Source: an uncultured Prevotella sp. (GTDB lineage: Bacteria > Bacteroidota > Bacteroidia > Bacteroidales > Bacteroidaceae). From it: a DNA stretch of 50,039 nucleotides. The stretch lies in the NCBI GenBank assembly GCA_905235905.1, contig CAJONO010000147.1, positions 1-50,039 of the forward strand, in the 5' to 3' direction. The stretch's first letter is position 1. Each line of letters begins with the position of its first letter. The position numbers were made by a program, and so were the translations under genes. A model generated the notes under the pieces. It was not told the DNA's origin and did not search any database. It was given only the letters and a program-made list of their open reading frames with translations. Shown here in pieces: positions 1,360 to 49,492 of the stretch.

Positions 1360-1376
1360 GTTACTTATGAATATAT

Positions 1377-1552
1377 ATTCACTTTATGAATATCCTAAAC
1401 TATTGATTACCAGTGTGTTATAATTTGACTTAAATTGCGCTTCAATTCATGCTGAATTACACGACAATTTAAGTTTAATTGCATCGTAATTCAGCATGAA
1501 TTTCAAGCGTACTTCCGTAAAGTCCCAAAATGCATGATTATGCAAACAAAAA
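1377..1552. repeat. Dispersed intergenic repeat element, copy A: eight 22-bp phased units, most with an internal dyad
   Basis: 22-mers start at 1377, 1399, 1421, 1443, 1465, 1487, 1509, 1531. Example: CAATTCATGCTGAATTACACGA / CAATTTAAGTTTAATTGCATCG / TAATTCAGCATGAATTTCAAGC. 17-bp perfect inverted repeat AATTCATGCTGAATTAC (1444-1460) and GTAATTCAGCATGAATT (1486-1502). Homologous to 40358-40533. Confidence 0.85.
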
Positions 1553-1570
1553 AAAGGGGAGGGAAAGTTC

Positions 1571-1618
1571 AGAAATGCGGCATCATGCCATTGAGGTGTG
1601 GTGCCGCATTTCTTTATT
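1571..1618 (+). terminator. Intrinsic terminator-like hairpin between convergent genes
   Basis: AGAAATGCGGCA ... TGCCGCATTTCT, 12-bp perfect arms, followed by TTATT. Confidence 0.6.
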
Positions 1619-9516: not shown

Positions 9517-9566
9517 ACTTTCAGTTTTGTTTGTTGAGTTTTTGTTTTTGTTTCAGAATCGGACTG

Positions 9567-17172: not shown

Positions 17173-17190
17173 TATTGTTGCTAATTACGC

Positions 17191-17304
17191 GGCGGGAAAA
17201 CCGCCGCACACGAACTTACTCATGTGGCGGGAAAACCGCCGCACACGAACTTACTCATGTGGTGGGAAAACCGCCGCACACGAACTACCTACGCCGCACA
17301 CGAA
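17191..17304. repeat. 35-bp tandem repeat (about 3 copies) between ansA and a porin gene
   Basis: GGCGGGAAAACCGCCGCACACGAACTTACTCATGT starts at 17191 and 17226; third copy at 17261 (GGTGGGAAAACCGCCGCACACGAACT); a further CCGCACACGAAC follows. GGCGGgaaaaCCGCC mini-hairpin in each unit. Confidence 0.92.
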
Positions 17305-21037: not shown

Positions 21038-21252
21038 CATTACAAACGCCTTGTAATGCAACTAAGTGGCATACTTACTGCCATTACAAATGCCTTGTAA
21101 TATCCCTTGAGTGGCAATTCGCCTTGCAATCGATGCTGAATTGTGTTGCAATTGATGCTGAATTGTGTTGCAATTGATGCTGAATTACAGTGTAATTAAT
21201 GCTGAATTACAGGGCAATTGATGCTGAATTACAGGGCAATAACCCTTATTGC
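21038..21252. repeat. 22-bp periodic dyad array (about 10 phased units)
   Basis: Near-identical units at 21126, 21148, 21170, 21192, 21214 (GCAATTGATGCTGAATTACAGG type), preceded in the same phase by two 44-bp units (CATTACAAAcGCCTTGTAAT at 21038 and CATTACAAAtGCCTTGTAAT at 21082) and ended by GCAATAAcccTTATTGC at 21236. Confidence 0.92.
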
Positions 21253-21255
21253 GGA

Positions 21256-21558
21256 TTAGGCAGTATAGATGATTTTCCCACGCCGTTTGATGTGGTCAAT
21301 CAGGGCAGGGTTGTCAAGTCTGCTGAAAAGAGACACGTCGCAGAAATATGGCAGTGATGATTCTGACAGCCTATAAGCCACGTCGGCAAGGTCATCGTCG
21401 TTGAGATGGTCACCTATCAGTGTGATATCCACGTCAGAGAATGGCATGTTGTTGCCTTTAGCCCGTGAACCATACAGTATCACCTGCTTTAGGTTGGCCG
21501 TCTTTGCAAAGGTGTCGTTCATCAGCTGTAGCTCATCGTCCTCCAATCCGTACTTCAT
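21256..21558 (-). CDS. MNT-type nucleotidyltransferase domain protein (antitoxin-like)
   Basis: 100 aa; 'VILYGSRAKGNNMPFSDVDITLIG' GSRAKG..SDVD motif; overlaps the upstream HEPN gene by 4 nt. Confidence 0.9.
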   Translation of the reverse strand: MKYGLEDDELQLMNDTFAKTANLKQVILYGSRAKGNNMPFSDVDITLIGDHLNDDDLADVAYRLSESSLPYFCDVSLFSRLDNPALIDHIKRRGKIIYTA

Positions 21559-21980
21559 TGTTTCAGTCCTTTCATCGTTTCTTCAAATTTGTTGAATAGG
21601 GGCAGATAGTCACCTATGATTCTTGTCATAATTAACTCTGCCGTTGCGCTATCGTAGTGATGCGACGACTGGTTGCGGTCTTCTATCGTCTTCATCCAAT
21701 TCCTGTTATCAATTAGGTTTACACTGAGTGCATATCTGATGGCATCGCGAGAGCCTCTGACATCCACGAAACCTTGATAAGTAGCATAGTCTTTCATTAC
21801 GTTCCATGCCGATTCGTGTGTGTATTCAAACCTCTGTATCAGCCCTTCACGGAGCAAGTCTGAAACATCATGCCCATAGTCAAGATTTCGTGACACGATT
21901 TCTACAGCTTCGTTCAGCAGCGCCAGAGCCTTGCTGAAATTCTCAAAACGCTGTTGCCAGCGAATATCCAAATCCTCCAT
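21555..21980 (-). CDS. HEPN / nucleotidyltransferase substrate-binding protein (HI0074 family), toxin-like
   Basis: 'GLIQRFEYTHESAWNVMKDYATYQGFVDVRGSRDAIRYAL...EDRNQSSHHY', RxxxxHxY HEPN motif; track start at 22010 is TTG, ATG (MEDLDIRWQQ) at 21980 preferred. Confidence 0.88.
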   Translation of the reverse strand: MEDLDIRWQQRFENFSKALALLNEAVEIVSRNLDYGHDVSDLLREGLIQRFEYTHESAWNVMKDYATYQGFVDVRGSRDAIRYALSVNLIDNRNWMKTIEDRNQSSHHYDSATAELIMTRIIGDYLPLFNKFEETMKGLKQ

Positions 21981-22089
21981 ACTTGTTATGAGTGTTGTAA
22001 TTTGTCGCAAAGATAGGGATAATTATTGGAATCGCCAAATATTTTTCAGACTTTTTGAAACGGAAGAGGCCGCTTGGGGCAGAACACAG

Positions 22090-40248: not shown

Positions 40249-40357
40249 TTGTCCCGACGGCGAATCGCGCTGCTGAACTCTCTTCTTTTGCCAGTCCCTT
40301 TAAGTAAGGTTGCTGGAGTTTCCTACCCTTTAAGGAACGATTGCCTATGAATATATA

Positions 40358-40533
40358 TACACTTTAGCAAACTCGGCAAATTACTGATTTCCAGTGTGTT
40401 ATAATTCAGCTTGAATTATGTTCCAATTCATGCTGAATTACGCGACAATTCAAGCTTAATTGTAACGCAATTCAGCATGAATTTCAGACGTGTTCGCATA
40501 AGGCCACAAAATGAATGATTATGCAAAAAAAGG
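40358..40533. repeat. Dispersed intergenic repeat element, copy B (22-bp phased dyad units)
   Basis: Units at 40402 TAATTCAGCTTGAATTATGTTC, 40424 CAATTCATGCTGAATTACGCGA, 40446 CAATTCAAGCTTAATTGTAACG, 40468 CAATTCAGCATGAATTTCAGAC; flanking 40380 and 40512 units also align to copy A in phase. Confidence 0.85.
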
Positions 40534-40637
40534 GGGTGGGAAACTGCAGTAGGGTAAGAAAACCCAACTTTTGGGGGCAGTATCGACGACGTTATGGTTT
40601 TTTAACGGTCAGATTTGGTGGTTTCAGAAAAAAGTTT

Positions 40638-48340: not shown

Positions 48341-49492
48341 ATGAAAAAAGTTGCTCTAATTACTGGTATTACTGGTCAGGACGGATCGTATCTGGCCGAG
48401 TTTCTCTTGGAAAAAGGCTATGATGTGCATGGCACTATCCGTCGCTCGTCGGTTGACTTCCGTGAGCGTATTGCCCACCTGGAAGGTCAGCCCAATTTCC
48501 ACTTGCACTATGCCGACCTTGGCGACTCGATGAGTGTGCTGGGCGTAGTCAGCAAAGTGCGCCCAACGGAAATCTACAATCTGGCAGCACAAAGCCATGT
48601 GCAGGTCAGCTTCGACTCGCCTGAGTTCACGGCCGACGTCGATGCCGTGGGTGTGCTCCGTGTCTTGGAGGCCGTTCGCCTGCTGGGACTTACCGACACC
48701 TGCCGCATCTATCAGGCTTCTACCTCCGAGCTTTATGGAAAAGTAGAAGAGGTTCCGCAGAACGAGAACACCCCCTTCCATCCCTATTCGCCCTACGCCG
48801 TGGCCAAGCAGTACGGCTTCTGGATTGTCAAGGAGTATCGCGAGGCCTACAACATGTACTGCTGCTCAGGCATCCTCTTCAACCACGAGAGCGAGCGCCG
48901 CGGCGAGACCTTCGTCACCCGTAAGATCACGCTGGCCGCCGCCCGCATCAAGCAGGGCAAGCAGGACAAGCTCTACTTAGGCAACCTCGGCTCACTGCGC
49001 GACTGGGGCTATGCCAAGGACTACGTGGAGTGCATGTGGCTCATCCTGCAGCAGGAGAAGCCTGAGGACTTCGTCATTGCCACTGGTGTGCAGCACTCCG
49101 TTCGCGAGTTCTGCTACTATGCCTTCAAGCATGTGGGCATCGAACTGGAGTTCGTGGGTGAAGGAGAAAATGAGAAAGGTATTATCAAGAGCTTTGATCC
49201 CGAACTCTCAACTCTCACCTCTCACCCCTCACCTCTCACCTCTCACCTCTCAATTGGAGACGTGCTCATCGAGGTGTCGCCCGACTTCTACCGTCCTACC
49301 GACGTGGTCAACCTCTGGGGCGACCCCACCAAGGCCAAGGCCAAGTTGGGCTGGAACCCGAACAAAACCTCGTTCGAGGAGCTGGTGAAGATCATGGTCG
49401 AGAGCGACATGGCCAAGGTTGCCGCCGAGGGCGCCGCCGCCAAGGTGCGCACGAATCTGGCCGAGTATTTAGAGAAAGGTATTGTGAAGTAA
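48341..49492 (+). CDS. gmd: GDP-mannose 4,6-dehydratase
   Basis: 383 aa; '[33 protein letters not shown]', '[12 protein letters not shown]', 'SPYAVAKQY'; contains insert '[17 protein letters not shown]'. Confidence 0.96.
49205..49253 (+). repeat. 7-bp tandem repeat (seven units) inside gmd
   Basis: CTCTCAA CTCTCAC CTCTCAC CCCTCAC CTCTCAC CTCTCAC CTCTCAA. Confidence 0.95.

Follow-up and report, generated by a model that had tools for sequence, protein, structure and literature searches.

Background

Dispersed intergenic palindromic units, the REP and BIME sequences of enterobacteria, are enriched at the 3' ends of genes and are low in number between divergent genes. Tandem sites spaced by one or two helical turns are found in the 22-bp iterons of R6K and in the 11-bp repeats of R1 parC, which are bound by ParR, and such sites are bound cooperatively on the same face. 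The A-tract periodicity of bacterial chromosomes consists of helix-phased A/T tetranucleotides, including AATT, for which a nucleoid role has been proposed (PMC3940949). The BrickBuilt MITE of Porphyromonas gingivalis, which is restricted to P. gingivalis/gulae, contains 23-nt tandem repeats and has GAGACCTTTGCA-type ends like those of ISPg1/ISPg9, so that MITEs with an internal array have a precedent (PMC4596501). In a limited literature search, we did not find a description of a phased, host-maintained AATT array inside a MITE.

Anatomy of the phased arrays

The window, that is, the whole stretch of 50,039 nucleotides analysed here, is contig C147, positions 1-50039, within a 3.23-Mb Prevotella draft genome of 231 contigs. 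It holds three loci, MITE copy A, MITE copy C and a simpler array, copy B, whose features are as follows.

1361..1572, + strand: MITE copy A (class I), with the 5' terminal inverted repeat lost (copy alignment, 78-90% identity)
1368..1381, no strand: conserved 5' dyad TGAATATATATTCA, out of phase with the array (column conservation, spacer indels)
1422..1502, no strand: phased array, eight AATT at 1422, 1433, 1444, 1455, 1466, 1477, 1488 and 1499 (shuffle test, AATT divergence)
1444..1458, + strand: fully conserved site AATTCATGCTGAATT (nearly invariant, 55 copies)
1488..1502, - strand: fully conserved inverted site (AATTCAGCATGAATT on the + strand), 44 bp from the 1444..1458 site (55-copy alignment)
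1531..1544, no strand: conserved 3' dyad TGCATGATTATGCA (55-copy alignment)
1555..1572, - strand: remnant of the right terminal inverted repeat, CTGAACTTTCCCTCCCCT, which differs from CTGAAGTTTCCCACCCTT at 3 positions (flank alignment)
1571..1613, + strand: separate intrinsic terminator, 19-bp stem and TTTATT, directly after copy A (terminator scan)
21116..21240, + strand: copy B, array-only, head-to-tail 22-bp units AATTGATGCTGAATTACAGGGC, without MITE ends, convergent genes on either side
40313..40549, + strand: MITE copy C, eight-AATT array at 40403-40483 (copy alignment)
40313-40330, + strand, and 40532-40549, - strand: terminal inverted repeats of copy C, both present

Copy A begins directly past the stop codon of a truncated AAA-ATPase_like/PDDEXK_9 gene (1-1359). 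The basic unit of its array is AATT plus 7 nt with an 11-bp period, which is one helical turn, and the array at 1422-1502 consists of four 15-bp dyads at a 22-bp pitch, each dyad being a pair of 11-bp units in alternating orientation. The run of eight AATTs in copy A compares with a longest run of 4 in 20,000 dinucleotide shuffles (1361-1560; pitches 8 to 25).

The original prediction, made from the window alone, described eight consecutive 22-mers spanning 1377-1552, most of them with a dyad of their own. Four of these dyads, at 1422-1436, 1444-1458, 1466-1480 and 1488-1502, do lie on a strict 22-bp grid, but the family does not preserve the first one (1377, aTTCActttaTGAAt). What is conserved near this position is the dyad TGAATATATATTCA (1368-1381), which stands at a variable distance from the array. 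The ACTTCCGTAAAGT dyad is moderately conserved and TGCATGATTATGCA is well conserved. The reverse complementarity noticed between the units at 1443 and 1487 was confirmed, 1444-1458 and 1488-1502 being inverted copies. The element itself exceeds the predicted span, running from 1361 to 1572, where what is left of an IS-type terminal inverted repeat closes it. The original prediction had not recognised the 11-bp unit, the MITE ends with their parent IS family, or the terminator at 1571-1613. A CRISPR array had been rejected at that time, and we agree: the linkers are 7 bp and the units are non-identical, in place of identical repeats with unique spacers of about 30 bp. The dyad TGAATATATATTCA (1368-1381 of the window) resembles the ARG box of ArgR.

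Several other sequences of the window were noted. A gene pair of nucleotidyltransferase (Polbeta) and NTase_sub_bind, of the HEPN/MNT-like toxin-antitoxin type, adjoins copy B (21256-22010). An intergenic gap (17182-17286) contains a hairpin-like unit, TAATTACGCGGCGGGAAAACCGCCGCACACGAACT, in three tandem copies of 35 bp. About seven CTCTCAC heptamers (49205-49252) lie within the ORF of a GDP-mannose 4,6-dehydratase-like gene (48341-49492), and this tract is a candidate phase-variable locus because a change of one 7-bp unit would shift the frame. Four similar sequences starting with CTGCRAA, at 9564, 19842, 28466 and 35701, look in reverse like Bacteroidota promoters (TAnnTTTG).

Relationship to an IS4-family insertion sequence

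When 1361-1560 was used as the query against its own genome, at least 40 long copies with 78-90% identity were found. Within the fetched 1.09 Mb of the 3.23-Mb genome, a profile built from the aligned copies detected about 60 copies of the MITE. Another 29 arrays there, copy B among them, do not match the full MITE. The word AATTNATGCTGAATT has 187 exact matches genome-wide, and its reversed control has none. A finding of only a few loci would have counted against the original prediction, and there are dozens of copies. Membership of copy A was judged from an alignment of about 55-60 genomic copies, and all figures on conservation and covariation in the MITE come from an alignment of 55 MITE copies.

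Alignment of the copies with their flanks revealed terminal inverted repeats beyond the span of the original prediction: the 5' end reads CTGAAGTTTCCCACCCTTT, and the 3' end carries its complement. The intact MITE is about 238 bp long between its CTGAAG...CTTCAG ends and has no coding capacity. The left end is recognisable in 28 and the right end in 35 of the 55 copies, with both retained in 19. A perfect 7-bp target duplication, TCAGTGA, was seen at one locus (L095), and another locus (L075) has a direct repeat of 6 bp; most copies have none, consistent with decay.

IS ends matching those of the MITE occur at six contig breaks in the same genome, three left and three right, about 85 bp inside the terminal repeat, as expected of a collapsed multicopy IS. 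The same ends in congeners flank a 479-aa transposase, assigned to the IS4 family by NCBIfam; the body of the IS was not found in the MAG of our species. The shared terminal repeats and the matching IS ends identify copy A as a 5'-truncated MITE and copy C as a fuller one. Judged by its ends, its short gene-less length and its multiple copies, the family is a non-autonomous derivative of the IS4 family. A second subfamily with another phased array, CTAATTCAGCRTGAATTTGAAGACAATTCAGCACGAATT, was observed in the same genome (L114, 2284-2460; L117, 8715-8915; L156, 1717-1848), beside related ends such as CTCAACTTTCCCACCCTT, which were seen in L114 and L117.

Conservation and genomic placement

The eight AATTs diverge from the consensus by 2.0% in the 55 copies, against 18% for the other A/T columns in the rest of the core, 23% in the terminal inverted repeats and 30% in the spacer (p<1e-60), and only 3 indel events were counted in the 139-bp core of all copies against 20 in the neighbouring 23-bp spacer (p=1e-14); these p-values treat cells as independent and overstate the certainty because the copies share ancestry. 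The site AATTCATGCTGAATT and its inverse are nearly invariant, and the remaining two dyads keep little except AATT. The AATTs diverge by 2.3% where the ends are poor and by 1.1% where they are good (p=0.17), and by 1.4% in the 22 copies in which one end is essentially absent. A singleton test, which is weighted to recent changes, agrees (odds ratio 0.28, p=0.002). Constraint on a source element could explain part of the AATT conservation.

When the gaps between ORFs of at least 110 codons were classified, arrays were found in 35 convergent, 26 tandem and 6 divergent gaps, and the array-free gaps numbered 40, 143 and 78, respectively. Arrays are thus enriched between convergent genes (odds ratio 6.0, p=2e-9) and depleted between divergent genes (odds ratio 0.23, p=3e-4), and the distance from stop codon to element is 20 bp or less in 41 of 60 cases. 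This siting could mean that the arrays act at gene ends, or simply that insertions are tolerated where they spare promoters and coding sequence. The genome has six PF08011 (PDDEXK_9) genes, and the only one with a listed element nearby is that preceding copy A. We therefore regard the AAA/PD-(D/E)XK gene as a bystander, and the position after it, which the original prediction had pointed out, as chance. No linked rep/par gene was noticed at the loci examined.

Possible functions of the array

We somewhat favour, on the evidence of sequence comparison, an IS4-family MITE whose phased array offers binding sites to a predicted DNA-binding protein and is kept by the host after the ends decay. The MITE would have dispersed the array and lost its ends after insertion, and host selection would keep the array. 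Since AATT recurs every 11 bp, its narrow minor grooves all lie on the same side of the helix, and the two inverted 15-mers (AATTCATGCTGAATT) may provide sequence specificity. A putative dimer or oligomer could read the AATT minor grooves on this face together with the CATGCTG core, and it might load cooperatively on the sites spaced by one turn at gene ends, in a nucleoid-type or an iteron/centromere-type binding mode. The original suggestions had included a DNA-binding or mobile-element protein with sites on one face, and such sites fit the exact 11/22-bp pitch, the intolerance of indels, the mostly free linkers and the MITE ends. Such sites predict that binding would be lost on 5-bp insertions or on changes of AATT to TTAA.

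The alternative that survives best, which we nevertheless consider unlikely, is an RNA-level 3'-end element like REP/BIME, in which a transcribed long AU-rich hairpin would stabilise mRNA ends or block convergent antisense read-through and, being near-palindromic, would act on both strands. The siting at convergent gene ends close to stop codons would suit such an element, and the predicted fold of copy A is strong on both strands (z about -5), but this strength follows automatically from the palindromic AATT modules and the inverted 15-mers. In the 55 variable class I copies, no compensatory change was detected in the predicted stem when compared with independent columns (outer stem, p=0.52; inner linkers, p=0.45), and a long cruciform or RNA stem was rejected, with no covariation at register 290 or 291 or at most slid registers. 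The small dyad 138-152 alone showed covariation at p about 0.007, a value not counted as strong because it is one among many tests. The serial-hairpin ncRNA of the original prediction was accordingly not borne out for these copies. Hairpins, moreover, need neither the exact 11-bp pitch nor indel intolerance, and the AATTs of the first dyad (consensus 94-108), which are outside the stem, are equally conserved. The element is not itself an intrinsic terminator: the scan of copy A places the terminator outside the array, at 1571-1613, and the scan near copy C gave one weak match, likewise outside the array. No Rfam match was found in the window. Because covariation is lacking and copy A has its own terminator right behind it, we rank an array of DNA sites above an RNA element for the MITE core.

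The array-only class is more favourable to the RNA alternative. Many of these forms, about 87 bp long, consist of half-sites flanked by AATT and joined by four 7-bp linkers. The two outer linkers are complementary beyond permutations (p=0.0007), and the inner linkers are not (p=0.75); the inner linkers are unconstrained, and the pitch is still held. Pairing of the outer linkers was also seen in distinct arrays of a congener (G312; AGGTCGC/GCGACCT) and in three of the eight arrays of the Prevotella UBA2850 type (AGACTCT/AGAGTCT). Two array-only copies have very stable predicted hairpins (z about -9 to -12), but copy B folds poorly (z -1.3). These complementary outer linkers and stable hairpins are not predicted by a pure DNA-site array, and they keep the hairpin alternative alive for this class.

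An array of selfish sites, recognised by a mobilising enzyme such as a REP/RAYT-like protein or the IS transposase itself and conserved by selection on mobility, is in our opinion quite unlikely. The dispersed copies, the MITE ends, the terminal inverted repeats of roughly 20 bp in some array-only forms and the species-specific words, as in REP families, would agree with it. However, copies with ruined ends preserve AATT about equally well, which argues against transposition alone as the source of the constraint, and phased AATTs are missing from the parent IS examined.

Mechanical folding of the nucleoid by intrinsically curved DNA, that is, phased A-tracts without a specific protein, is improbable: the AATT tracts do stand at one-turn pitch and most arrays tested curve more than shuffles in one wedge model, but the effect is model dependent, fails to reach significance for copies A, B and C under the Bolshoy model and is modest (about 40-55 degrees over 88 bp, where a shorter A5 control gives roughly 125-145 degrees), and it leaves the fully conserved CATGCTG cores unexplained.

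Distribution in other genomes

The class I element is absent from the 398 sampled congeners, save for weak matches in G312, and its core had no match outside its own genome in the scan of named species. A looser pattern, AATT-N7-AATTC-N5-GAATT-N7-AATT with one mismatch, was found in 51 of 399 genomes of the genus including our own, and a control with a 10-bp pitch in 6 of 399. Many of the congener matches run to 5-13 units with quite different 7-mers. Note that a reversed-pattern control also matched in about 21 congener genomes (roughly 39 sites vs 177, hand count), so that extended arrays, and not single congener matches, are taken as evidence. A pattern designed for G312 was badly chosen and gave few matches.

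One congener (G267) and a named Prevotella record (L219) have the common array word ATACTCG. In a scan of GTDB genomes for six phased AATTs, the matches listed included plain 11-bp simple repeats with nearly identical 7-mers in many phyla; non-identical 7-mers repeating at 22 bp were, among the matches listed, mostly in Prevotella and rumen Bacteroidaceae records, and most of the matches listed for other taxa were of the plain 11-bp kind. Arrays with the Prevotella UBA2850 word AATGCCT/AGGCATT were seen in contigs filed as Selenomonas RUG14411 (L257) and Clostridiales RUG576 (L278), and these probably reflect misbinning, or else transfer. A resemblance (AATTNAGGCTNAATT-like) runs through the cores of several species, as though the binding site were drifting together with its putative protein.

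Implications and comparison with known systems

We tentatively propose that Prevotella species have phased-operator systems of their own, each with AATT-N7 at 11 bp and a species-specific 15-bp core (AATTCATGCTGAATT, AATTCAGGCTGAATT, AATTAATGCCTAATT, AATTAAGGCTTAATT), in which a putative co-evolving protein would mark gene ends or organise the chromosome; in our species such a system may have spread by MITE capture. Prevotella is among the most abundant genera of the gut and rumen. If the array is a landing site kept past transposition, a bacterial MITE would spread a regulatory or architectural site used by the host, and the array would point to an unrecognised DNA-binding protein in Prevotella.

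Compared with known systems, these arrays share the tandem one- or two-turn pitch of iterons and plasmid centromeres, but they are spread over the chromosome in dozens of copies. They are intergenic, biased to 3' ends and palindromic like REP/BIME, but they lack the GTAG/CGTC-tagged REP hairpin of 20-40 bp, and their AATTs are helically phased. They also differ from A-tract periodicity in that they are discrete, sequence-conserved and mobile with one invariant tetramer, and not a diffuse statistical signal. BrickBuilt is likewise an intergenic, multicopy Bacteroidales MITE, whose short-period array lies between leader and tail and whose terminal inverted repeats resemble the ends of a resident IS; the present units, however, are non-identical 11/22-bp units that share only the AATT pitch and inverted dyads, and the ends are those of an IS4-family IS.
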